This document shows positions 1-44,813 of a DNA stretch of 44,813 nt, one piece after another. The stretch lies in IMG/VR virus record IMGVR_UViG_3300037042_004684, positions 1-44,813 of that record; one strand, written 5' to 3'. Position 1 is the stretch's first letter. The number at the start of each line of letters is the position of its first letter. A model generated the notes under the pieces. The model made no database searches. It was not told the DNA's origin and worked only from the letters and a program-made list of their open reading frames with translations. Origin of the DNA: a virus. Position numbers and translations under genes: made by a program.

Positions 1-136
1 GAGGCGGTGAGGCGGTGAGGCGGTGAGGCGGTGAGGCGGTGAGGCGGTGAGGCGGTGAGGCGGTGAGGCGGTGAGGCGGTGAGGCGGTGAGGCGGTGAGG
101 CGGTGAGGCGGTGAGGCGGTGAGGCGGTGAGGCGGG
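1..136. repeat. Octamer tandem array (GAGGCGGT), left end
   Basis: Sixteen perfect tandem copies of GAGGCGGT (1-128) are followed by one variant ending in GGG. Next come an interrupting block GCGGTCCGGTGCGGT (137-151) and a decayed copy. The same array and the same interrupting block occur at 44683-44813, so the two contig ends look like one array cut in two. Copy number is probably unreliable because short-read assembly collapses such arrays. Confidence 0.97.
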
Positions 137-168
137 GCGGTCCGGTGCGGTGAGGCGTGGAAAAGAAA

Positions 169-204
169 AAAGGCCAACTTCCCAAATTTGGGAAGTTGGC
201 CTTT
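169..204 (-). terminator. Perfect palindromic terminator of the 254-1965 operon
   Basis: A perfect 36-nt palindrome with two 18-nt arms (core GGCCAACTTCCC / GGGAAGTTGGCC) and no unpaired loop. On the minus strand it is followed by a T-rich tail (complement of 161-168), fitting Rho-independent termination of the minus-strand genes ending at 254. In the RNA a few central bases must open as a loop. On the plus strand the downstream bases are less T-rich, so minus-strand use is favoured. Confidence 0.8.
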
Positions 205-253
205 GTGCTTTACGGGAAAGCTAGCGAGGCGGAAAAGCTGTTTTGCGTTTATC

Positions 254-601
254 TCATGGCGGAGAAATCAAAAGGCGAAGCTTATGAATCAACTCCTTTG
301 GTTCGCAGATAATTGGAGCGCCTCGCGTATAATCGGCAATACTTCGGTCTGTGGTCCGGGAAAAGAAGTTGCGCGGGGTGGAATAGCTTTGGCCCGTGAT
401 GAGGTTGCGGAAAGCTACGGGTTCACGGTACGAAACTAGCACCTCTGCTTTCTCGCCATAGGTGGCTACCGTGGCGCTTGCGTTAGTTCCGGGTTTTATT
501 GAATCAGGTTCAGCAAAGGGAATAGCAGACCGAACACGGTCAAGCCGTGCCTCTCGGCCCGTGCCCAATTTGGCAAAATGTGAAGAGTAGGAAAAACTCA
601 T
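254..601 (-). CDS. Hypothetical protein, 115 aa (cassette gene 2)
   Basis: No family recognised. The start codon overlaps the stop of the upstream gene (ATGA at 598-601), so the two genes are translationally coupled. The protein is basic and soluble with no membrane segment. Its middle (about residues 52-90) has a beta-rich pattern around VSYREPVAFRN and SYSTPRNFFSRTTDRS, which looks like a small folded domain. A strong palindromic terminator lies 50 bp past the stop. This gene and its partner are visibly AT-richer than the structural genes and sit between repeat arrays, so they may have been acquired as a unit. The function is unknown. Confidence 0.7.
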   Translation of the reverse strand: MSFSYSSHFAKLGTGREARLDRVRSAIPFAEPDSIKPGTNASATVATYGEKAEVLVSYREPVAFRNLITGQSYSTPRNFFSRTTDRSIADYTRGAPIICEPKELIHKLRLLISPP

Positions 602-1965
602 TTTGAGAGGATGCTGATTTGATTGAACGCTGGATTTACAAAGGCGGAGACTAGGCGGAAAGTCAGAGCCCGCAAATTTTCCACCGTTGCGCCGATTAAC
701 GGCGGAAGTGCGGGCGAAGATTTGATTTTCTCAACCTCTGCCTCTGCCTCTGCAACTTGCTTCTGTTTATCCGCAAGAAACGCCGGAAAATTGGCGTTGT
801 TTTGCTCTATTTGTGCGAGTTTTTCGGCGTAATCATGCAAAGCCCGGCGCTTTGCATCTGCGAATTCAGCCAACTTCAGGATGGAACGTCTTTCCACTTC
901 CGCCGCAAAAGCGGCTTCATCCGTTTGCGGAATGGCGGGCTTTCCCGACAATCTTTGGACTGTGTGCGTTGGCTTGCATAATTCGGCCACTTCAGGACCA
1001 AAGTCTGAAGGGTTCACCCTGTGGCAACCCGCTTGCAAGAGGGTTGCGGGTGTATCAAAGTGCCGGATTTGAAGCAAATTCACTTTTCCGTAGGGCGTAG
1101 GAAGTTGAGAGGAACACCCGGACCGCAACCAATTGGCCAAAGTGGAGAGGTTGAATGGGCAAGCAATCCCGGACGAAAGGGAAATTTTCCCTTCAGGGTC
1201 AACTGTGGCCGAGTAATTCGCCCTTTGGTCAACGTGCGTCCATACCTCATCAATAGCGGGAAAGCGAAGCCCTTCAACGTTCCAGCTAGTTCCAGCGCCT
1301 AATGCCCGGGCTTTGTTTTCAAGGTTATACTCTAGAAAAGTAGCCTCTGCTTCTTGCTGCCTTCTGATTTGGTAGTTTCTGTTTTCCAGCGCTTCGCCTT
1401 TCGCTTTTTCGGCCCTAGTTGGCCAGCTTTCCGCACCTAGCAAAGCGCCTTTGGCTTTGGACAAAGCAGACTCCGCGACAAGCAAAGCGCTTTCCCGTTT
1501 GGTGTTTTCCCGTTCAATTGCTTGCGCTCGCAAACCGGCGACGCCGTGCATTCGCCAAAAATTTTCTTTGAGCCAAGCGGACAAAGTGTCCGCTTGCTCG
1601 CCTTGACCCGGGCGGAAAAAAGACGGCAGAGGATTGCCAAAAATTGAACAGTCAAGCGCCGCAACTTCTTCCGAAGTGGGAGAGAGTTTGCGGTCAATAT
1701 ACGCCAATTTTTCCGATGGGGAAAAATAAAAAAACCGGACGTTCAGATATGAACCAACGGAAAAGAAAGAAGTGATTCGCGTCACTTCGCCATGCCTGCG
1801 AATCTCAAGCCAAGACTGACCGCTCTTCAGGGTGAAATCGCCGAAAGGAGTCTCCAAAATGCTCTTAAGCATAAAGGCCAATTTTGTATCTGTGTACTCA
1901 ACGGTTAACCCGTGGTCTGCGATATGCTTCAGGATATCTACTTTTGCTACTTGATACGTTTTCAT
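598..1965 (-). CDS. Hypothetical coiled-coil protein, 455 aa (cassette gene 1)
   Basis: No family recognised with confidence. The N-terminal ~150 residues look globular. Residues about 150-215 are charged and helical (ERENTKRESALLVAESALSK), a likely coiled coil, and a second Glu/Lys/Ala-rich helical segment lies near residues 355-425 (DKQKQVAEAEAEVEKIK). No signal peptide, membrane helix or nuclease motif is visible. The start is the first ATG after a leader containing three tandem CACAGAAA octamers (1969-1992). It is the first gene of a two-gene operon ending at the palindromic terminator. Lower GC than the late genes and its place inside the bracketing arrays suggest separate ancestry. Confidence 0.75.
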   Translation of the reverse strand: MKTYQVAKVDILKHIADHGLTVEYTDTKLAFMLKSILETPFGDFTLKSGQSWLEIRRHGEVTRITSFFSVGSYLNVRFFYFSPSEKLAYIDRKLSPTSEEVAALDCSIFGNPLPSFFRPGQGEQADTLSAWLKENFWRMHGVAGLRAQAIERENTKRESALLVAESALSKAKGALLGAESWPTRAEKAKGEALENRNYQIRRQQEAEATFLEYNLENKARALGAGTSWNVEGLRFPAIDEVWTHVDQRANYSATVDPEGKISLSSGIACPFNLSTLANWLRSGCSSQLPTPYGKVNLLQIRHFDTPATLLQAGCHRVNPSDFGPEVAELCKPTHTVQRLSGKPAIPQTDEAAFAAEVERRSILKLAEFADAKRRALHDYAEKLAQIEQNNANFPAFLADKQKQVAEAEAEVEKIKSSPALPPLIGATVENLRALTFRLVSAFVNPAFNQISILSK

Positions 1966-1968
1966 TTG

Positions 1969-1992
1969 TTTCTGTGTTTCTGTGTTTCTGTG
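1969..1992. repeat. Three tandem TTTCTGTG octamers in a gene leader
   Basis: Three exact copies of an 8-bp unit lie 4 bp upstream of the start codon at 1965. On the minus strand this gives a leader of repeated CACAGAAA without a Shine-Dalgarno sequence. The 8-bp period matches the octamer arrays at 1-136 and 2647-2928, although the sequence differs. Confidence 0.85.
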
Positions 1993-2026
1993 TTTGTTCG
2001 GTTCAGGATGAACCGAAAAAGTTATT

Positions 2027-2117
2027 CGGCGGCGTAGGCGGCGGCGTAGGCGGCGGCAACGCGGGCGGCGGCGCGGGCGGCGGCGCGGGCGGCGGCGGTG
2101 GCGGTGGCGGTGGGAGG
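2027..2117. repeat. GGC-rich low-complexity tract
   Basis: Simple-sequence DNA built from GGCGGC with TA, AAC, GC and GT interruptions, ending in GGTGGGAGGGG. The plus strand has many closely spaced G runs, so G-quadruplex formation is conceivable. An open frame across it encodes only a polyglycine tract and is not considered a gene. Confidence 0.85.
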
Positions 2118-2543
2118 GGACATGAAAGAAACCATAGGACGCATTAGTTGACTTTCAAGACCTAATTTCAAAAAGCGCGTAAGTCACTAATGCGCCAAAG
2201 GGTTAAAAAACGCTGAACACAATAACCATTTATTGTGCTACTTAGTGTGATAGGTTTTAAGCGTTGTTAGTTAGCAACTTGCAAAGTCTGCACACATAAG
2301 CACACATCTTTCTGTATCGCTGACAGAATAGATTAGGGTAAGAGGATATTTTCTGCCAGCGGGGGAACCTCGTTTTTGGTGTGTTTTTGTGTTATTGTGA
2401 ACGGTGTTACGTAAACGCTTGGTCAAACAACTTTTTATAGGTCAACTAATCTGAACACATTAATTCAGATGCTGAATTAATGTGTTCAGGGGAAAGCCCG
2501 GAAGGCGAACGGACCGCCGCAAATGGAAAAACAACGGGTTTCC
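2118..2543. other. AT-richer non-coding region with inverted repeats
   Basis: No credible gene. Three inverted repeats are visible: CACAATAA-CCAT-TTATTGTG (2218-2237), TTCTGT-N7-ACAGAA (2310-2328), and a perfect 18-bp stem with 3-nt loop (2451-2489). Two TAGTTGAC motifs occur, on the plus strand at 2145-2152 and on the minus strand at 2441-2448. AT-richness next to iteron-like repeats fits an origin or a divergent control region. Confidence 0.6.
2451..2489. other. Perfect 18-bp inverted repeat with 3-nt loop
   Basis: Arm 2451-2468 begins CTGAACACATTAATTCAG and is exactly complementary to 2472-2489, with ATG as the loop. The stem is AT-rich and has no T-run on either side, so it is more likely a protein-binding site or an origin hairpin than a terminator. 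It lies directly between a TAGTTGAC motif and the 16-bp repeats. Confidence 0.85.
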
Positions 2544-2623
2544 TAAGTGGCCGATTGCGTAAGTGGCCGATTGCGTAAGTGGCCGCTTGCGTAAGTGGCC
2601 GCTTGCGTAAGTGGCCGCTTGCG
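2544..2623. repeat. Five tandem 16-bp iteron-like repeats
   Basis: Five head-to-tail copies of a 16-bp unit: two TAAGTGGCCGATTGCG (2544-2575) followed by three TAAGTGGCCGCTTGCG (2576-2623). Length, number and exact spacing resemble initiator-binding iterons of plasmids and some phages. No Rep protein of a known family was recognised, so the role is inferred. Confidence 0.9.
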
Positions 2624-2646
2624 TAGGTAAGAGATTAAGTCAAAAC

Positions 2647-2928
2647 AGCACCGCCGCACCGCCGCACCGCCGCACCGCCGCACCGCCGCACCGCCGCCCC
2701 GCCGCACCGCCGCACCGCCTCACCGCCCCGCCGCCTCACCGCCCCGCCGCCTCACCGCCCCGCCGCCTCACCGCCCCGCCGCCTCACCGCCCCGCCGCCT
2801 CACCGCACCGGACAGCGCCGCCGCACCGCCGCCTCACCGCACCGGACAGCGCCGCCTCACCGCACCGGACAGCGCCGCCTCACCTCACCGCACCGCCGCC
2901 CCGCCGCCCCGCCGCCCCGCCGCCCCGC
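2647..2928. repeat. Octamer array (CACCGCCG/CACCGCCT/CCCCGCCG)
   Basis: Tandem octamers in C-rich orientation on the plus strand: first CACCGCCG copies, then alternating CCTCACCG and CCCCGCCG, then blocks containing CACCGCACCGGACAGCGC. The reverse complement contains TCCGGTGCGGTGAGG, the same block that interrupts the end arrays at 137-158 and 44779-44800. This array is therefore an inverted relative of the terminal GAGGCGGT arrays. Confidence 0.92.
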
Positions 2929-2945
2929 TAACTAGGCAGAATTTT

Positions 2946-3110
2946 CCTAGGGTGTTTACCCTAGGCAGAATTTTCCTAGGGTGTTTACCCTAGGCAGAAT
3001 TTTCCTAGGGTGTTTACCCTAGGCAGAATTTTCCTAGGGTGAAATCCCTAGGCAGAATTTTCCTAGGGTGAAGTCCCTAGGCAGAATTTTCCTAGGGTGA
3101 AGTCCCTAGG
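2946..3110. repeat. Six 29-bp units with CCTAGGGT hairpins
   Basis: Hairpins start at 2946, 2975, 3004, 3033, 3062 and 3091, exactly 29 bp apart. The first three are CCTAGGGT-GTTT-ACCCTAGG; the last three have a 7-bp stem with loops TGAAAT or TGAAGT. The 9-bp spacer CAGAATTTT is invariant. A sister array with the spacer in reverse complement lies at 44576-44653. Spacers are identical, so this is not a CRISPR. Confidence 0.97.
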
Positions 3111-3119
3111 CAGAATTTG

Positions 3120-3304
3120 CCGGTCTCGACCTAGAAAATGGGTCCCATCCAAACGCGCACCCACCACCTCTCCGCCAAATAGCGGATCACTTAGCCAAAG
3201 TCAACTAGCACCCCCTCCCCCAAAAAATTTTTTGCCCCATAAACAGAAAGTCAACTAAAGCATTGACTCCACCAATGCGCCCAGCATCCTAGACGCCTCA
3301 CACC
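3120..3304 (+). promoter_or_regulatory. Late-gene leader with TAGTTGAC motifs
   Basis: Non-coding stretch between the hairpin array and the first plus-strand gene. It has a small hairpin TCCGC-CAAATA-GCGGA (3170-3185), two GTCAACTA motifs (minus-strand TAGTTGAC) at 3200-3207 and 3250-3257, and TTGACT at about 3263, which could be a -35 element for the late genes. No good -10 is obvious. Confidence 0.4.
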
Positions 3305-3870: not shown

Positions 3871-4323
3871 ATGCCCGGACCCCGCTATCCTGAGCCCGTG
3901 ACCAAAGCCGAGAACCGCCTCGTGTCTTCCCGCGTCAAAGCACTCAACAACATGACCCCGGTTAAGCTGGTAGAGATTGCCCGCAACTACTCGGTCAAAT
4001 CCGTCCAGTTCCTCGCCGCGACGCTGGAGGACCCCGATATGCCTCCCGCCGTGCGGCTCCGCGCTGCGGAGATTCTGCTCGACCGTGGGTGGGGCAAGGC
4101 CGCGCAGTCGGTCAGCGTCGAGGTCCGCGACGCCAACCCCGGTGGCGTGCTCGCCCTCAGCATCATGGAGCGCGTCGCCCAGCTCAAGGCCGCAGCCAGC
4201 GTCCCCGGCACCGTCGAGTTGGAGCCGTCCGACGCCCAAGTCATCACCGACGAGGACGACGGGCTGGATCACCTCGCGGCCAAGCCCGTCGAGCCGATAG
4301 AAACTCCCGAAGACCTACTGTGA
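3871..4323 (+). CDS. terS: Terminase small subunit (probable)
   Basis: A 150-aa protein of the right size and position for the small terminase subunit, which recognises phage DNA at packaging start and regulates the large subunit. Residues about 45-78 read VKSVQFLAATLEDPDMPP then RLRAAEILLDRGWGKA, the helical AAEILLDRGWGK signature common in small-terminase-like proteins. The C-terminus is acidic (DEDDGLDH), typical of the segment contacting TerL. The stop overlaps the GTG start of the large subunit (GTGA at 4320-4323). Assignment rests on motif plus context; a general phage DNA-binding protein is the alternative. Confidence 0.75.
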   Translation: MPGPRYPEPVTKAENRLVSSRVKALNNMTPVKLVEIARNYSVKSVQFLAATLEDPDMPPAVRLRAAEILLDRGWGKAAQSVSVEVRDANPGGVLALSIMERVAQLKAAASVPGTVELEPSDAQVITDEDDGLDHLAAKPVEPIETPEDLL

Positions 4324-5705
4324 ACAAAGACTTCATCCCGTTCCCGCAGTTTTTTGAGGAGGTGTTTGTCCCGCTGAACAAACTCGAACTGCCGATCAAG
4401 CCGCTTCACCGCGACACTTGCCGCGTGTTGCAGAAAGCGTTCTTCGGCGAGCTGAAGAAAAATTGGGTCGTCATCAACGTCCCGCCCCGCGTCGGCAAGA
4501 CCAAGATGGTCGAGGCGTGGGTCGCGTGGGCGCAGGCGTATTTCCCCGACAGCCAGTTCATCCAGTGTTCCTACTCCAACACGCTCGCGGAAGCGTCGTG
4601 CCGCTACATCCAGCAAACAATGGACTCGCCTTGGTATCGGGAGCTGTTCCCGCACACGCGGCTTGGTGGCGTGAGGCAGGCCGGTGACTTCAACACCACC
4701 GAGGGAGGCCGCGTCTATGCCGACGGCGTCGGCGGATCGCTGACCGGCGTTGGCGCGGGGCTCAAGCGCCCGTGCGGCGGTGCGATCATCTTGGACGACC
4801 CGAGCAAGCCCGACGAGGCGCTGTCCCGCGTCGAGAGCGACAAACTGCGGGTCTGGTTGGAGAACACGCTGAAGTCCCGGCGCAACTCGTCGCAATACTG
4901 CCCGATCATCGTGGTGATGCAGCGGCTACACCCGGACGACCTCTCGGGATTCATCTTGCAGAATTACCCGGACGACGTGGAGCACATCAAGTTTCCCGCG
5001 CTCGTGAACGGCGAGTCGGCCATCCCCGAGACCGTCTCGACCAAAGACCTGCTCGACACCCAGCGAGTCAACCCGTTCACCTTCGCCGCGCAGTATCTTC
5101 AGGAGCCCATCATCCAAGGGGGCAATCTTATCAAGCTGGACAACTTCCGCTACTACGACTTCGAGGCACCGCCGAAGATCGAGTTGAAGATTATTACCTG
5201 CGACACCGCGATGAAGGCCCGAGAGTCGAGCGACTACTCGGTGTTGCAGTGTTGGGGCCGGAGCCTGAAGCGGGCGTTCCTGATCGACCAGATTCGCGGC
5301 AAGTGGGCACCCGCCGAGTTGCTGGCCAACTCGCGCAAGTTTTACGAGAAACACCACAAAGCAACCTCGCCGCTCTCCTACATCGCCGTCGAGGAAGCGG
5401 GCACCGGCTACGGGCTCATGTTGGAGATGCGGAAGAAAGGCATCCCCGCTCGCGGCATCACCCGGCTCACCGACAAAGTCAGCCGCGTGAAGATGGCGTT
5501 GCCCTATCAGGAGACCGGGATGGTGTTTTTGCCCAAGGGCGCTCCGTGGCTTCCGGCTTTTGAGCAGGAAATCGCCATGTTTCAGGACGACGGTAAACAG
5601 CGGCATGACGACCAATGCGACTGCTTTGCCGACGGCGTCTCCCTGCTTTTGAGCAAAGGCACGTCGATCCTGAACGTCCTTGGCACCGACCGGCGAAAAA
5701 AGTAG
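4320..5705 (+). CDS. terL: Terminase large subunit
   Basis: A 461-aa packaging motor: N-terminal ATPase plus C-terminal nuclease that pumps DNA through the portal and cuts it. Walker A is VPPRVGKT (residues 54-61) and Walker B AIILDDP (155-161). The RNase H-like nuclease shows an acidic residue in ITCDTAMKARESSDYSV (Asp295), VEEAGTG (Glu358/359) and HDDQCDCFAD (Asp430-434). The GTG start at 4320 is chosen because it overlaps the terS stop and gives the expected family length; an upstream in-frame extension is the shadow of terS. The TAG stop forms part of a TAGTTGAC motif. Confidence 0.96.
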   Translation: MNKDFIPFPQFFEEVFVPLNKLELPIKPLHRDTCRVLQKAFFGELKKNWVVINVPPRVGKTKMVEAWVAWAQAYFPDSQFIQCSYSNTLAEASCRYIQQTMDSPWYRELFPHTRLGGVRQAGDFNTTEGGRVYADGVGGSLTGVGAGLKRPCGGAIILDDPSKPDEALSRVESDKLRVWLENTLKSRRNSSQYCPIIVVMQRLHPDDLSGFILQNYPDDVEHIKFPALVNGESAIPETVSTKDLLDTQRVNPFTFAAQYLQEPIIQGGNLIKLDNFRYYDFEAPPKIELKIITCDTAMKARESSDYSVLQCWGRSLKRAFLIDQIRGKWAPAELLANSRKFYEKHHKATSPLSYIAVEEAGTGYGLMLEMRKKGIPARGITRLTDKVSRVKMALPYQETGMVFLPKGAPWLPAFEQEIAMFQDDGKQRHDDQCDCFADGVSLLLSKGTSILNVLGTDRRKK

Positions 5706-5904: not shown

Positions 5905-7395
5905 ATGAAATACCTCCTTCGACTGCTCACTGCATTGTTTTTCTCGGTCGGCGGCGCTCAGGCGCAGTGGACTTACAGCGGGGCCAATATGCCGAACGGC
6001 ATCGGGGCCGTCACCATTATGGGTTTGGACAACACCAACGCCATCGTGCCGCTCAAAATCAATTCGTCCGGTCAACTGATCGTTACCGGAGGCGGCGGTG
6101 GCGGCGGTGGCGGCGGTTCGATCACGCCTTTTGATCCTCAGAGTTTCCGCCTCTCCGACGGCACCAACTGGCAGCAAGCCGCGCTGGATCGCACCACCGC
6201 CGCCGCGCCGTTTGCGTTTCGGCTCTCGGACGGCACCAACTTCATCACGACACTTCCGGTTTCGATTGCTTCATCCGTAGCCGTCACCGGCACGTTTTGG
6301 CAAGCCACCCAGCCCATTTCCGCCGCGTCGCTCCCGCTTCCCGCTGACGCGGCTACGCAGACGACTCTAGCTGCGCTCAACGCCAAAATTCCCGCTGTTG
6401 GCCCAGCCAGCGATGCCGCGTCGCTACCGGTTGTTTTGAGTTTCAAAGAAACCATCGGGCCATTCACGGCGCAATCTACGGGTAACAACTTGCTCACCGC
6501 CGATGGCTCTTGGTTTGACGCTCAGGGAGACAATTCTTTTTCGGTTCAAATCATCGCTTCAGCGGGCATCTCTGCTGGACAGATTATCTTTGAACAGACC
6601 AACGACACCACGAACGCCCCCAACGGCGTGACTTTGGCCGTGGACGAACAAGGCGTCATCAACGCCAACCCCATCACCGCTGCGCTCTCGATTGCCGCCA
6701 GCACCAACCGAATGTTCAAAGGGGCCATCACCGGCAGGTATATTCGAGTCAGAATCTCGACCGCGTTTGTTGGCGGCACGGTTCGGGCAGTGGGGGCTTT
6801 TTCCCCCCTGTCGTATGCCGGTGTGACGCTCAACGTGCAACAGGCCACGGCAGCTTCTCTTGCGGTCACGGCGAGTTTAGCCGCCACGCAAACTCTTTCC
6901 ACGGTCACGACTCTCACGGGCGGCAGCGTAGCAGAAGACTCGGCAACCACAACGAGTCCGCACATTGTTGGCGCGATTGCCCGCACCGCGCTTCCCGCCG
7001 CAACCGTCGTTGCCGGTGATGCGGTGCGTAACACGTCGTCAGTTTCCGGTCAGCTTATCATGAAACCGTTCGCTGTGCGCGAGCTGGACTTTTTTGCCAA
7101 CGTAACCGTTACCACCGCCACCCAAACCGCCATCCGTGCCGCGCAGGCGGCGGGCATCCGGCAAAACGTCACGTCGATTACCTACCAGAACACCAACGCG
7201 GTTACGACAACTCTAACCATTCAGGACGGCAACACTACGTTGATTCAGGTGAGTGTCCCCGCAAGCATGACGGCTCCGGTGCAGCTTCAATTCCCGACGC
7301 CGCTGTTTGGCACCGCCGCGACGGCGCTCAACTACACCGCAGGCACGACCGCAGCAAACATCCTCCTAAACGTCACAGGTTTCAACTCCTACTAA
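5905..7395 (+). CDS. Structural protein with signal peptide, 496 aa
   Basis: Starting at ATG 5905, the N-terminus MKYLLRLLTALFFSVGGAQA is a textbook Sec signal peptide with an AQA cleavage site before Gln21. A ten-residue glycine run (62-71) follows, then two copies of a FRLSDGTNW/FRLSDGTNF segment and beta-rich, Thr/Ala-rich sequence to the end, as in phage fibre or decoration proteins. It lies between terminase and portal, a normal place for head or accessory structural genes, yet a signal peptide there is unexpected. Upstream ATGs (5848, 5887) would bury the signal peptide. The fold is not recognised; surface-exposed virion or secreted protein is inferred. Confidence 0.7.
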   Translation: MKYLLRLLTALFFSVGGAQAQWTYSGANMPNGIGAVTIMGLDNTNAIVPLKINSSGQLIVTGGGGGGGGGGSITPFDPQSFRLSDGTNWQQAALDRTTAAAPFAFRLSDGTNFITTLPVSIASSVAVTGTFWQATQPISAASLPLPADAATQTTLAALNAKIPAVGPASDAASLPVVLSFKETIGPFTAQSTGNNLLTADGSWFDAQGDNSFSVQIIASAGISAGQIIFEQTNDTTNAPNGVTLAVDEQGVINANPITAALSIAASTNRMFKGAITGRYIRVRISTAFVGGTVRAVGAFSPLSYAGVTLNVQQATAASLAVTASLAATQTLSTVTTLTGGSVAEDSATTTSPHIVGAIARTALPAATVVAGDAVRNTSSVSGQLIMKPFAVRELDFFANVTVTTATQTAIRAAQAAGIRQNVTSITYQNTNAVTTTLTIQDGNTTLIQVSVPASMTAPVQLQFPTPLFGTAATALNYTAGTTAANILLNVTGFNSY

Positions 7396-7398
7396 GGC

Positions 7399-7581
7399 AT
7401 GAGCTGGCCAGCGATCACCGTAGAGGCGTCCGATTACGACCCCTTGGTCTTCGGCTGGAATATCCAGTGTCGAATTGTCAGCGCCGACGGAAGCGTCCGC
7501 GCCGGGGTTGAATTTGTTGCTCTGCCCAGCACCGCCACGCCGCAGGAAATACTCGCCGAACTCGCAAAGAAATACCCATGA
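7399..7581 (+). CDS. Hypothetical protein, 60 aa
   Basis: A small acidic protein (SWPAITVEASDYDPLVFGWN at the start) with no transmembrane segment. It begins 3 bp after the secreted structural protein and its stop overlaps the portal start (ATGA at 7578-7581), so it is clearly embedded in the operon. No family recognised. The tight packing and uniform composition support it being real. Confidence 0.65.
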   Translation: MSWPAITVEASDYDPLVFGWNIQCRIVSADGSVRAGVEFVALPSTATPQEILAELAKKYP

Positions 7582-8981
7582 CAGCTCCCACTACCCAAGA
7601 GACGCGGCTTAATTCGTTGAACGATTTGGTTGACCAGACAACCGGGGGTTTTGGTGGGCTTCAGACGCAGACGATTGCCCAGCCTTACACGTTGGCTTTG
7701 GGCAACGCGAGCGTTCCGCTGACGCTTAACCGCATTGTCCTGTCCTACTCTTACATGACGCAGGGTTTGGTTCAAACCTTGGTCGGTCAGCCGGTGGACG
7801 ACGCTTTCCGGGGCGGCTTTGACATCACCACCGACGAGTTGGACGAGAAGGAAATCGCCCAGCTTCAAACGGCGATGAAGTGCTCGCGCAAGCGCGACCG
7901 GGGAAGCCGGTTCAAACGTCCGCTCAGTCCGGGCTCTGCGGCCAGCCTTGGGAACTCGGACATCAAAGTGGCGATGGACGTTTGCAAGTGGGCAAGGCTC
8001 TACGGCGGCTCGGGTCTTATCATCAACACCGACCAAGATTTTCGCACCCCGCTCGACGTGTCAAAGATCACCAAAGACTCGCCGTTGGAGTTTCTGGCGG
8101 CGGATCGGTGGGAGTTGATCCTGAATCAGACCAACATCTACTCGGACCGGAACCCCTGCCCGTTCAACTACTATGGCCTCCCTCTCAACTCAAGTCGTGT
8201 CATTAAAGTGCTGGGTATTGAAGCTCCCTCTTACATCCGTTTGCGTCTTCAAGGTTGGGGGATGTCCGAAATCGAGCGTTGTATTCGCGCCATCAACTCG
8301 TTTGTCAAATTTGAGAACTTGGTTTTCGAGCTTCTGGACGAAGCGAAGATCGACGTGTTCTCCATCATGGGGTTCAACGATTCGCTTCTGACCGACGAGG
8401 GCACCACGAACACGCAACGCCGGGTGGCGCTCGCCAACCGGATGAAGAATTTCCAGAACGCCCTCGTGATGGACAAAGAGGACACTTACCAGCAGAAGCA
8501 GATTTCTTGGTCGGGTCTGGCGGAGATGTGGAACGAAATTCGTCTTAACCTCTCGGCGGATTTGAAAATCCCGATGAACAAGCTGTTCGGCCAATCGGCC
8601 ACGGGGTTTGGCGGCGGGCAGGACGCCATCGAGAATTACAACTCCGTCATCGAGACCGTGCGCTACAACGCCGAACCTGTCGTGAACGAAATTGCCGAGC
8701 TGCGATGCCAACAGCTTTTCGGGTTTGTCCCGGAGGACTTGGGCCTTGCGTGGAAACCGCTCAAGATGCTGGACGGCGTGCAGGAGGAAGAAGTCAAAGC
8801 CAGCAAGCAGACCCGGATTATGGAAATGTTTACGCAGCGTCTTGTCACCGGACAGGAAGCCTCGCGGCTTTTGCGCTCGGAAAAACTTCTCGGCATCAAA
8901 ACCGAAGTCTCCGAAGGCACCCGCGACGTGGACCCGTTGCCCGACGCGCCTGCGGGCAAGGCCGAAAAAAACCGAGAATAA
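7578..8981 (+). CDS. Portal protein (DUF1073-like)
   Basis: A 467-aa protein of the portal family that forms the dodecameric ring at the head vertex through which DNA enters and leaves. Signatures of the DUF1073 portal group are visible: GWGMSEIERCIRAINS near residue 226, and IPMNKLFGQSATGFGGGQDA near residue 333 followed by an ENYNSVIE helix. The C-terminus is charged and variable, as usual. It follows terminase by two genes and directly precedes the Mu F-like head gene, the standard order. Start fixed by ATGA overlap with the 60-aa gene. Confidence 0.92.
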   Translation: MTAPTTQETRLNSLNDLVDQTTGGFGGLQTQTIAQPYTLALGNASVPLTLNRIVLSYSYMTQGLVQTLVGQPVDDAFRGGFDITTDELDEKEIAQLQTAMKCSRKRDRGSRFKRPLSPGSAASLGNSDIKVAMDVCKWARLYGGSGLIINTDQDFRTPLDVSKITKDSPLEFLAADRWELILNQTNIYSDRNPCPFNYYGLPLNSSRVIKVLGIEAPSYIRLRLQGWGMSEIERCIRAINSFVKFENLVFELLDEAKIDVFSIMGFNDSLLTDEGTTNTQRRVALANRMKNFQNALVMDKEDTYQQKQISWSGLAEMWNEIRLNLSADLKIPMNKLFGQSATGFGGGQDAIENYNSVIETVRYNAEPVVNEIAELRCQQLFGFVPEDLGLAWKPLKMLDGVQEEEVKASKQTRIMEMFTQRLVTGQEASRLLRSEKLLGIKTEVSEGTRDVDPLPDAPAGKAEKNRE

Positions 8982-9947
8982 ATGAGAAAGGTTTTGGCCC
9001 CCATAGTTGCCCCGGAGTTTGCCGCTCCCGAGGTTGAGTCCGAGCTAGTCGCCTACTTGGAAGACGTGCTGCTGACTCCGTTAAAAGACGCCTTGGCCGA
9101 ACTTCGGCAAAACTCGGCGGACCCGATTATTGCCGCGCTCAACTCGGGGCAAATCCAGTATCACGACGGGCGGTTTGTCGGAAAGTTCAACGCCGCCATC
9201 AGTCTTGCGTTGCGGACTTTTGGAGCGGTTGCCTCGGGCAACGGGTTTGAGTTGCCGCTTTCCGGCTTGCCTCTGCCGATCCGTCATGCGGTCTCGCAAG
9301 CCAAGGCACAGGCGGAGGAAAAGCACCGCGAACTTTTGTCGCTGTTGGCGTTTCTTTCCACGACGGTTTTGATCGCACCAACGGGTATCGACTTTGGGAA
9401 TACGTTTGACAGTTTTCTTGAGGACTTGCATGAGCAATTCCGTCGGTCGGTTTCTTCAGGGAGAAAAACTCCTCCTTCGGCCCCGTCGGGTATGTCTTCG
9501 CGGCTGGGGGAGGAGTTCACCTCCCGAGTGAGAAAGGCCGCGCAAAATCTTGCCGCCGCCGAAGCCCATGACCTCCGCCTCAAAATCCAGCAAAATCTCT
9601 CTATGGGGGCGAGACGTGACCGGCTTGACGCTATTGTCGAAGCGGAGCGCGGGATTCTTCTCCGTAAAACCCGGATCATCTCTGAAGCTGAGGTTGCGGG
9701 CGTTGTGGCGGATTTTACCAAGTCTCGTTGCGAAGATATGGGGATCACCAGCTACGTTTGGGAAACGATGGGCGACCACAAAGTCCGGCCCACTCGTGGC
9801 GAAGCAAACAACCATCGCGCTCTCGAAGGACGGGAATTCAGTTTTAACAACCCCCCGGTCGTTGATTCTGCCACAGGGCGGCGCTGCAATCCGGGGGAAG
9901 ATTACGGTCCTTGCCGATGCGTGGCTCGTCCGATCCTCATAACATGA
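8982..9947 (+). CDS. Minor head protein (Mu F / SPP1 gp7-like)
   Basis: A 321-aa head morphogenesis protein, a minor capsid component bound near the portal. The diagnostic C-terminal domain is clear at about residues 255-318: YVWETMGDHKVRPTRGEANN, then HRALEGREFSFNNPP and NPGEDYGPCRCVARPI. The N-terminal half is helical. The gene starts directly after the portal stop and its own stop overlaps the next start (ATGA 9944-9947). Two cysteines in GPCRC near the end match the family. Confidence 0.9.
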   Translation: MRKVLAPIVAPEFAAPEVESELVAYLEDVLLTPLKDALAELRQNSADPIIAALNSGQIQYHDGRFVGKFNAAISLALRTFGAVASGNGFELPLSGLPLPIRHAVSQAKAQAEEKHRELLSLLAFLSTTVLIAPTGIDFGNTFDSFLEDLHEQFRRSVSSGRKTPPSAPSGMSSRLGEEFTSRVRKAAQNLAAAEAHDLRLKIQQNLSMGARRDRLDAIVEAERGILLRKTRIISEAEVAGVVADFTKSRCEDMGITSYVWETMGDHKVRPTRGEANNHRALEGREFSFNNPPVVDSATGRRCNPGEDYGPCRCVARPILIT

Positions 9948-37099: not shown

Positions 37100-37200
37100 T
37101 GGTGGGCGCGGCAGGATTTGAACCTGCGCCTGACACATACCGGATTGCCCGCTTTTATCAGGATTATGGCTAGTTTGGCGGCACATTCCGCCACGCGCCC
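37100..37200 (-). tRNA. Atypical tRNA, anticodon unassigned, CCA encoded
   Basis: On the minus strand a 7-bp acceptor (GGGCGCG / CGCGCCC) with A73 and an encoded CCA (37102-37100). A canonical T arm GCAGG-TTCAAAT-CCTGC precedes it. After the acceptor TGGCGGAAT resembles leucine tRNAs. However the D region folds as GGCGG/CCGCC with no GG in the loop, and 66 nt separate acceptor and T arm, so the gene is 101 nt. No anticodon arm with U33 and good pairing was found; candidates are CTGATAA (GAT) at 37155-37161 and an AAA loop. It may be class II, contain an insertion, or be decayed. Confidence 0.65.
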
Positions 37201-39314: not shown

Positions 39315-41711
39315 TCAGAGCAAAGTCGCCCGCTGATGCGCGATTTCAACGGCGTCCACCGAAGCACAGTTGCCCCAGAGTTGATGGTAGTCGCCGTCGA
39401 TGCGCGTGCGGGCGATCTTCGTCCATCCCAGCTCGCGCAACACCGCCGCAAGGGCTTGGTCGGTAAACTTCGGCAGGTTGGTCGAGTCCATCGCGGCCCG
39501 CAGGCAGGACATCGAAAGAATGTCCGGCTGAACCAGCGGGCCGGGCGTGTCGGCAATCGCCTGCGAGACGGAAGCCTGAAGCGGCGACGCGGCGTTGATC
39601 GCAAATTCGCGCAGATACGGCGTGATGACGGCGCGGCCCTTGGGCGAGAACAACGGGCTGAGTTTGTAGTTGCGGAGGTAGGACAAAAGCCCGCCCGCGT
39701 TCTGCGACAGCATGGAAAACAACTTCGTGAAATACTTTTCTCCGCCCATGCGCGAAACGGCGTCGGGAGTTTGTAGTTTCGATTGCACTACAAAGTAGCG
39801 GCGGTCGGAGTCGGTGATGGCGAGCGCGTCCTGATAGTTGGTAAACATGAGGTAGTTCGCGTTGTTGGGGACCATCACGGAGTCCTCGCGCATCCGACGC
39901 ACCGACACGAGTTCGTCGGTGATAAACGGCTTCAGTTTGTCCATCACCGCATGACGGTTCGATCCGATGATGCGGACCTCTTCCATGACGACGAGTTGCT
40001 GACCGTAGGCCCAAGCCGTGTATTTGTCCTCCATCACGAGTTGCGCGGAAACTTTGGTGACGTTGCGCCGACCGAGGACCGCCGACATCGCGGCGGCGAG
40101 GAACGATTTGCCCGCGCCTTGCGCCGACTGGATCAGCGGAGCCCAATTCACTTTCTCGCCCGGTTGCTGGACTTGGAACGCGAAGAAGGATTGCAGAATA
40201 TCCCGGTAATCCGACTCGGCAAAAAGATTTTCAAAATGCCGCGACCAGACCTCGCCCGCTTCGTCGGCGCGGCTGTCGTCAACTTTCAGGTGCGACGGTC
40301 GGTAAACATTTACGTAGGGAATCCCCTCTTCCTGAAAATGCCGTTTGCGCTTCGGCTCGTAGCGCAAGCCCTCGACGGCGGGAACGCTCAAAACTTTGAC
40401 CGCAAAATCCGTTGCCTTGTAACTCGTCTCGCCGGTCTCGGGGGCGGTGTAAAGCGTGTTGAAAACCTCGGGGGAAAACTTGCGGCCCGTGTTCAGGTGA
40501 TAAAACACGTTCTCGGACGTGACGAAGACCAGACCGTCCGCCCACTTGGGTCTCTCGTCCGCACCGGGCTCGTGCTTGGCAATTTCCCGCTTCAGGTCGG
40601 TGACGCTTATCGGCATCCCGCGCTTGCCCAACTCCGAGCGGAGTTTCCCGACCAAAAGTTTTTTCTCCAGACTCCCGAGCGCGGCCCCGGCCTTTGCCAC
40701 CAACGCCGTGCCTTTGTCGATCAGCTCTTCCGTCGAGGGGTTCGACGCAAGCCAGTCCTGAACCTCTTTGCTCGCCCGCTCCGCCAGCTTGGTCGAGGAC
40801 CAGCCCGCGACGGACGCACGGCGCAACACCGACCGGAGAGTCAGCGGGGTGCGGTTGGGGTTTTCCTTCAGAGTTGACCAACGATACGCCGTCTCCTCCG
40901 CGTCCTCGTATTTGCTCCCCTTGGCGCTCCACTCGTCCCAAAGCGTGTAACCCTCCTCGCCGAACTGATGCTTCAACCCCATCGCGGTCTCAATCCATTC
41001 CTGCATCGTGCAGTCCGGGTCGAGGAACGTCAGAGCCTCGCGGGCGTCGTCCAGCTCGACGCCTTCGACCCGCTGGCGCAAATGCTCAAAACCCGTGGGC
41101 TCTGAAACGTGCTGGACGGGAGTTGTCCCCGCGTCGGCGTCCGGGTCAATGTCCGCAGACATAAGCGGCAAACCCTCAACGGATGACACCAGCTCGCCGG
41201 GTTCCTCCCCGGCGAAAATCGTGGGCCAATACATCGGTTGCACCGGCACCTGCGACTCGGAGTTGACCGAGTCAAGCCCGAGCAACTTGGCAATGTGGGC
41301 GACGGCGGCGGAGTAAAGCGTCAGCGGCAGGCGATCCGCCGCAACCAGCACGCGCAGGCGGGGCGAGTCGGCGGTCGAGCTGGCGGTGTGCCAGACGGCA
41401 AAGCTGAAGCCCTGAAGACCGACCCACTTCTGGGCCAGCAAGTCGTCGGCCTGCTTCGGATCGTCCACGTCGAGGGCGACGAGGCTCGCGTGACTCGCGT
41501 GCTCCCCGCGCCGGGGCGACGGCGAAGCGCGGAACGCGGCAGGCACGACGAACTTGGTCTTTTTGGCCGCACCCTGCTCTTTCTTCGGCAAGGCATGATA
41601 CTGCGCCCGCGTGATGGACAGGCGGGTCGGCTCGGCCAAAGCCGCGACCAACTCGGGAAAATTCTTAAACGTGGCGACAACTTCGCCAAGATTCGTGCCG
41701 GTGAAAATCAT
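39315..41711 (-). CDS. Primase-helicase (AEP-like plus DUF5906-like), 798 aa
   Basis: The replication initiator enzyme. The N-terminal primase part has ASLVALDVDDP (residues 76-86, acidic metal-binding motif) and SPRLRVLVAAD (116-126). A PriCT-like region follows (CTMQEWIETAMGLKHQFGEE, about 234-253). The helicase has Walker A AQGAGKS (530-536), Walker B LVVMEEV (573-579), and LMFTNYQDALAITDSDRRYF downstream, as in VirE/DUF5906-type SF3-like helicases. Both primer synthesis and unwinding in one chain. The HTH gene precedes it with ATGA overlap. Confidence 0.88.
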   Translation of the reverse strand: MIFTGTNLGEVVATFKNFPELVAALAEPTRLSITRAQYHALPKKEQGAAKKTKFVVPAAFRASPSPRRGEHASHASLVALDVDDPKQADDLLAQKWVGLQGFSFAVWHTASSTADSPRLRVLVAADRLPLTLYSAAVAHIAKLLGLDSVNSESQVPVQPMYWPTIFAGEEPGELVSSVEGLPLMSADIDPDADAGTTPVQHVSEPTGFEHLRQRVEGVELDDAREALTFLDPDCTMQEWIETAMGLKHQFGEEGYTLWDEWSAKGSKYEDAEETAYRWSTLKENPNRTPLTLRSVLRRASVAGWSSTKLAERASKEVQDWLASNPSTEELIDKGTALVAKAGAALGSLEKKLLVGKLRSELGKRGMPISVTDLKREIAKHEPGADERPKWADGLVFVTSENVFYHLNTGRKFSPEVFNTLYTAPETGETSYKATDFAVKVLSVPAVEGLRYEPKRKRHFQEEGIPYVNVYRPSHLKVDDSRADEAGEVWSRHFENLFAESDYRDILQSFFAFQVQQPGEKVNWAPLIQSAQGAGKSFLAAAMSAVLGRRNVTKVSAQLVMEDKYTAWAYGQQLVVMEEVRIIGSNRHAVMDKLKPFITDELVSVRRMREDSVMVPNNANYLMFTNYQDALAITDSDRRYFVVQSKLQTPDAVSRMGGEKYFTKLFSMLSQNAGGLLSYLRNYKLSPLFSPKGRAVITPYLREFAINAASPLQASVSQAIADTPGPLVQPDILSMSCLRAAMDSTNLPKFTDQALAAVLRELGWTKIARTRIDGDYHQLWGNCASVDAVEIAHQRATLL

Positions 41712-41899
41712 TTTGAAACAAGTCGGGCGGTTTTGAGCGCAGCACGGTAACGCGCCTGAAGCTCGGGGGTGGCAACGTGAAGACCGGCTTCGACGTTGGC
41801 TAGGTAAATCGTGCTGAAGCGAAGCGCACGGGCGAGAATCGACAACTGAACTTTTGCCTTGATCCTCTCGTCTTTCAGGAGTTGGCCGGGAGGTTTCAT
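41708..41899 (-). CDS. HTH transcriptional regulator (Cro/C1-type), 63 aa
   Basis: A small Cro/CI-like helix-turn-helix protein: residues about 5-45 show GQLLKDERIKAKVQLSILAR and ALRFSTIYLANVEAGLHVA, matching the HTH_3 spacing with a YLANVEAG recognition region. No oligomerisation domain follows, so it would act as a minimal repressor. It may bind the ATAC-N7-GTAT or CCCAGCGCTGGG dyads, but that is untested. Coupled to the primase gene by ATGA overlap. Confidence 0.75.
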   Translation of the reverse strand: MKPPGQLLKDERIKAKVQLSILARALRFSTIYLANVEAGLHVATPELQARYRAALKTARLVSK

Positions 41900-44575: not shown

Positions 44576-44653
44576 CCTAGGGTCTTCACCCTAGGAAATT
44601 TTTGCCTAGGGTCTTCACCCTAGGAAATTTTTGCCTAGGGTCTTCACCCTAGG
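44576..44653. repeat. Three 29-bp hairpin units, right array
   Basis: Hairpins CCTAGGGT-CTTC-ACCCTAGG start at 44576, 44605 and 44634, exactly 29 bp apart, with spacers AAATTTTTG (twice) and then AAATTTCTG. The stem and 29-bp period match the left array at 2946-3110, but the spacer is in reverse-complement orientation (left spacer inverted reads AAAATTCTG). The arrays are thus inverted relative to each other. Confidence 0.96.
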
Positions 44654-44682
44654 AAATTTCTGCCTATTTCGCCCGGTGCGGT

Positions 44683-44813
44683 GAGGCGGTGAGGCGGTGA
44701 GGCGGTGAGGCGGTGAGGCGGTGAGGCGGTGAGGCGGTGAGGCGGTGAGGCGGTGAGGCGGTGAGGCGGTGAGGCGGTGCGGTCCGGTGCGGTGAGGCGG
44801 TGAGGCGGTGAGG
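44683..44813. repeat. Octamer tandem array (GAGGCGGT), right end
   Basis: Twelve GAGGCGGT copies (44683-44778), an interrupting block GCGGTCCGGTGCGGT (44779-44793), and two and a half further copies up to the last base. The end overlaps the start of the window in phase when four bases (GAGG) are shared, consistent with a circular molecule cut in this array. Confidence 0.95.

Follow-up and report, generated by a model that had tools for sequence, protein, structure and literature searches.

The window, the whole stretch of DNA analyzed here, is the 44,813-nucleotide viral record IMGVR_UViG_3300037042_004684 and represents a contractile-tailed phage. Its rightward genes encode TerL (phrog_38), the portal, the major capsid protein, the tail sheath and the baseplate wedge, and its leftward genes encode a polymerase, an Enc34-type SSB, a DUF2800/PDDEXK exonuclease and a primase-helicase. 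A tRNA-like Rfam match of 37 bits, unseen by ARAGORN, lies close to where the SSB gene starts (37103 to 37200, minus strand). Repeats take up the divergent junction at which the leftward early and replication operons meet the rightward terminase/late operon (Table 1). A blastn search matched the junction to no known phage. Since the host-linked relatives nearest to the window by portal include MAGs of an uncultured Opitutae member (71%), of an Opitutia member and of an Opitutaceae member, the phage probably infects Verrucomicrobiota/Opitutae; one comparable portal match was found in a MAG labeled Rhodospirillales.

Table 1. Features of the junction and of selected genes in the window
Feature	Position	Strand	Remarks
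Left octamer array, (GCGGTGAG)n, first part	44673-44813	+	reaches contig end
Left octamer array, second part	1-152	+	contig opens inside array; copy number a lower bound
Cassette terminator, intrinsic, perfect 16-bp stem	169-204	-	closes cassette
Cassette gene 2, P0002, 115 aa	254-601	-	weak match to phrog_5643 (unknown function)
Cassette gene 1, P0001, 455 aa	598-1965	-	orphan; predicted largely helical, low confidence
33-codon Ala-rich ORF (MSPPTATATAAARAAARAAARVAAAYAAAYAAE)	2022-2123	-	just upstream of P0001
39-bp perfect palindrome, 18-bp arms, 3-nt loop	2451-2489	.
Five 16-bp iterons, TAAGTGGCCGCTTGCG	2544-2625	.
Right octamer array	2648-2928	-	inverted relative to left, more heterogeneous
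Right hairpin/dyad array, 6 x TAGGG-N6-CCCTA, 29-bp period	2946-3110	+
Conserved block CTAGAAAATGGGTCCCATC	3131-3149	+	candidate packaging recognition/cleavage site
Two AGTTGACTTT motifs	3201-3256	-	oriented leftward, past the block and ahead of the first late ORF; comparable repeats in relatives
Probable terS-position ORF	3871-4323	+	weak matches only, to families of unknown function
terL	4089-5705 as listed	+	homology from about 4263
63-aa ORF	41708-41899	-	weak HTH_31 match under Pfam cut-off; upstream of primase
Left hairpin/dyad array, 3 x CCTAGGGT-CTTC-ACCCTAGG, 29-bp period	44576-44653	-	about 42 bp upstream of first leftward early ORF

Anatomy of the junction and its cassette

The gene order at the junction is the same in the relatives G007, G020 and G315, with primase, exonuclease, SSB and polymerase running one way and terL, portal, major capsid, sheath and baseplate genes the other. 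An earlier note on this DNA had drawn the region on a circular map. The ends of the window contig overlap by 20 nt only, all of it octamer repeat. Nevertheless, their adjacency on a circle is well supported at the level of synteny, because G020 and G315 share the gene order on both sides with the end-joined window and G007 opens at the corresponding place, within an octamer array of its own. The ends of G020 close on a unique overlap of 99 bp, and the sequence of G315 runs straight through the junction; G004 also begins in an array. As the window contig starts within the left octamer array and its end overlap is all repeat, that array may exceed the length shown. Oppositely oriented terL pieces at the start of L002 (positions 1 to 1056) suggest that this assembly end is chimeric or inverted, and an 18-bp repeat, AGCGTTGCCGTAAACCCG, is present in 14 copies within a leftward early ORF of G315 (L093:3661-3916).

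The left octamer array is composed of runs of 12.8, 3.1 and 16.9 exact GCGGTGAG units with two TCCGGTGCGGTGAGG interruptions, and the right one contains GCACCGCC, CCCCGCCG and a 23-mer bearing CCTCACCGCACCGGA three times. The two octamer arrays are 87 to 90% complementary over 110 to 141 nt and the two hairpin arrays 83 to 89% over about 100 nt. Outward from the cassette, the order on either side is octamers, hairpins and operon start. The repeats listed in the earlier note were all recovered at about the same coordinates, and the opposite orientation of octamers and hairpins that it described was confirmed by complementarity of 83 to 90% over about 100 to 140 nt. The block that it had reported as common to both arrays proved to be TCCGGTGCGGTGAGG, which is exact in both, with two plus-strand copies (at 141 and 44783) and three reverse complements (at 2798, 2832 and 2855). 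Octamers of the form CAGAAACA (1967 to 1995) also immediately precede the start codon of the cassette's first gene, and G007 likewise has AACCAGAA octamers right before that of its own first cassette gene (L022:6695-6748).

The cassette is an orphan gene pair, AT-richer than its surroundings. For P0001, searches of Pfam, PHROGs, NCBIfam and PADLOC gave no match, nor did those of phages, plasmids and 236 genomes from the class to which the relatives belong, and an AlphaFold model built without an alignment (mean pLDDT, 43) was not interpretable. The P0001/P0002 cassette is missing from the relatives, and no second copy was found anywhere. The corresponding place in G007 holds another pair, a phrog_2554 protein and a 67-aa ORF, transcribed in the same direction as in the window. 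The description of two unrecognized AT-richer genes with a perfect terminator held for the terminator, with its 16-bp stem; the gene count may be three if the Ala-rich ORF is included.

A conserved dyad and a terminase-proximal block

The hairpin core, allowing at most one mismatch, was seen nine times in the window, against 0.02 expected from shuffles. In 598,556 bases of related sequence, the strict TAGGG-N6-CCCTA dyad matched 11 times, always in the junction (window, 9; G007, 1; G020, 1), and no TAGGG/CCCTA pair was found in the same bases at spacings of 4, 5, 7 or 8. A relaxed form occurs twice in the G315 junction. By chance, about 0.05 strict and 0.3 relaxed dyads are expected per whole genome. 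TAGGG is the only half-site among the 1,024 possible 5-nt sequences that gives an N6 palindrome in both the G007 and the G020 junctions. A palindrome of fixed spacing is kept at the same place in the window, G007, G020 and G315; the AT-rich L085 group lacks the dyad. A search of IMG/VR with the exact hairpin and its CCTAGG ends gave six matches, none of which had the related TerL.

The halves of the dyad are kept and the loops vary, with no compensatory change seen. Because conservation of the halves goes beyond mere pairing and their centers lie 11 bp apart, about one helical turn, a protein operator is suggested rather than an RNA structure. The units do fold as single-stranded DNA, so they may have a structural role as well. 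Divergent phage operator regions are palindromic and are bound by dimeric HTH repressors. The junction resembles them in that a palindromic dyad, its half-sites separated by roughly one turn, is repeated between divergent modules. It differs from them in the tandem 29-bp amplification flanking an accessory operon and in that the regulator is only a weak candidate. The 63-aa HTH-like ORF is perhaps that regulator; a weak syntenic match to it was found in G007 and none in G020 or G315. Sigma-70-like promoters were in no excess over shuffles in the junction.

A second conserved element, CTAGAAAA-GGGTCCCAT, precedes the terminase genes in the window, G007 and G004. A blind scan for this pattern in 2.9 million contigs of IMG/VR matched only G007, G004 and a newly found contig, L078, which then proved to encode TerL (47%) and portal (46%) proteins of the same family. 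Degenerate forms are present in G020 and in the L042 group, in the latter between terS and terL. In G007, G004, L031 and G315, AGTTGA-type repeats separate the block from the late genes or occupy the equivalent position; L078 bears a different, 49-bp repeat. In the known phage 1N2-2, which has a related TerL, the block is absent from the first 700 bases of the record. A tmRNA gene detected by Rfam (RF00023, 96 bits) and not reported by ARAGORN lies between terL and portal of G007 (40233 to 40532, minus strand; L022:233-532).

A conserved sequence thus adjoins the terminase genes in related phages, as would be the case for a packaging site. The lambda cosB region holds three TerS binding sites (PMC4669245). 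The arrangement in the window is reminiscent of lambda cosQ-cosN-cosB in that a cleavage-like block adjoins the terminase genes and is followed by short repeated motifs before the first late gene. Unlike at lambda cos, the block of the L042 group sits between terS and terL, and the contigs continue through the block instead of ending there. No physical end was seen, and headful (pac) packaging therefore fits at least as well as cos. Avoidance of GGGWCCC was rejected as a cleavage-site signature, as this motif was not rarer than the Markov expectation. As a separate observation, GGWCC (AvaII-type) is depleted genome-wide, with 73 observed and 125 expected in the window, 42 and 110 in G007, and 48 and 120 in G020, which possibly reflects restriction avoidance.

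Short-period arrays recur in the junction

A search of related contigs for the pairing of hairpins with octamers, which the earlier note had proposed, returned the dyad and, often, short tandem arrays at the same junction, with other repeat letters. The units are CGCTGCCA and AACCAGAA in G007, GGCTACCC and its reverse complement (about three copies each) in G020, and the heptamer CGGGCGA in G004. These sequences are unrelated between relatives; what recurs in the same junction is the period of 7 to 8. Relatives with one array and no kept orientation were to count against the scheme of paired arrays, and half of this was found: G007 has a single long octamer array and no inverted pair, which means that the inverted pairing is not conserved. 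In G020, a short inverted octamer pair surrounds the dyad.

Exact period-7/8 tandem arrays numbered 11 in 301,824 bases of related DNA, and 11 of 11 were inside the junction, although several came from one genome and they are not 11 independent events. None was present in 245,331 bases of controls, a set picked by convenience and unmatched for composition. The arrays are similar to bacterial short tandem repeats in their period of 7 to 8, their non-coding location and their occurrence in both orientations, but they are confined to one junction rather than dispersed. Such dispersed repeats are exemplified by L058, a prophage-like contig of Opitutaceae, where GAGTAGC heptamers and decamers of the CGACTGCAAT type occupy many gaps between genes and run in either orientation (positions 6900 to 9851). 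At the same junction, an end of G316 consists of 26 C (L083:1-26), which may be a poly-G sequencing artifact. Two other accounts of the repeats were discarded. A G-quadruplex role was dropped by inspection, as G-richness does not keep to one strand among relatives and is lacking in the 5'-UTR octamers, and an origin from the host genome was rejected, as among 286 genomes of the relatives' class the hairpin occurs in one and the octamer array in none.

Interpretation of the junction

With a probability of about 0.58, we consider this region to be a divergent early/late control junction with an operator, a probable packaging-start site, slippage-expanded repeats and an accessory cassette. TAGGG-N6-CCCTA would be a palindromic operator, probably bound by a phage-encoded dimeric regulator, and this putative regulator would set the balance between the leftward early and replication genes and the rightward terminase and late genes. 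The operator appears to have been amplified in the window phage, so that it now stands before both operons. The CTAGAAAA-GGGTCCCAT block, followed by short repeats in several relatives, is probably the site that the terminase recognizes or cleaves (pac or cos). We infer that the octamer arrays are period-8 expansions that arose repeatedly at this site with different letters, most likely by replication slippage. The octamers and hairpins on the right have the appearance of the left block copied in inverted orientation; an inverted duplication would fit, because both sides are partly inverted copies and both have GAAG-loop hairpins when read in the same sense. The cassette between the arrays makes most sense as an accessory early operon that ends in a terminator of its own.

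The junction might instead be a replication origin, in which iterons, 39-bp palindrome and hairpins would serve as initiator or fork-loading sites. Iteron-type origins of plasmids and phages combine tandem iterons with a Rep-like initiator. The window has tandem 16-bp iterons together with a palindrome in an AT-richer stretch, its replication genes are read outward from the junction, and its hairpin units fold as single-stranded DNA (z scores of -3 to -4). However, no initiator homolog was recognized, P0001 being an orphan and neither it nor P0002 matching any initiator family. In addition, iterons and palindrome were not noticed in the relatives, and the conserved dyad is single-copy in two of them. 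The GC-skew plot, which the earlier note had suggested as a check for an origin, follows gene direction without a separate sharp switch. An origin role is possible, if rather unlikely. Among the functions that the note had offered (origin, packaging start or segregation site), a cis-acting hub fits an early/late junction beside the terminase with conserved cis elements, and a regulatory and packaging hub is the likelier reading.

It is also unlikely that neutral microsatellites, shaped in part by short-read assembly and without function, account for the arrays, in a region where only ordinary intergenic sequence is selected. The unrelated repeat letters, the contigs that break within arrays and leave copy number a lower bound, the possibly artifactual poly-C end and the spread of the L058 heptamers over many intergenic gaps would all agree with neutrality. 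Yet every period-7/8 array of the relatives falls in one small region, and four phages keep the dyad there, which argues that the junction as a whole is not neutral. At the other extreme, the arrays may be kept as a sequence-independent element whose period, not letters, is selected, for example a spacer that codes by its length for the distance from early to late promoters, or a hot spot of recombination at which accessory early cassettes are exchanged; we regard this as a long shot. The mobile or invertible cassette raised by the earlier note, with the inverted arrays as ends at which recombination flips or moves the two genes, is very improbable: inverted repeats of about 88% over more than 100 bp do flank an AT-richer orphan pair with its own terminator, and G007 has a different pair at the same place, but no integrase, invertase, transposase or recombinase was found among the ORFs scanned, P0001 was found nowhere else, G007 has one long octamer array, and its cassette genes point the same way as those of the window.

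Short arrays of near-constant period and unrelated letters, recurring at one site, break the short-read assemblies of such phages. The lineage is linked to uncultured Opitutae, and no close cultured relative was found here. Its early/late meeting place is now defined, with two conserved cis elements open to direct testing.
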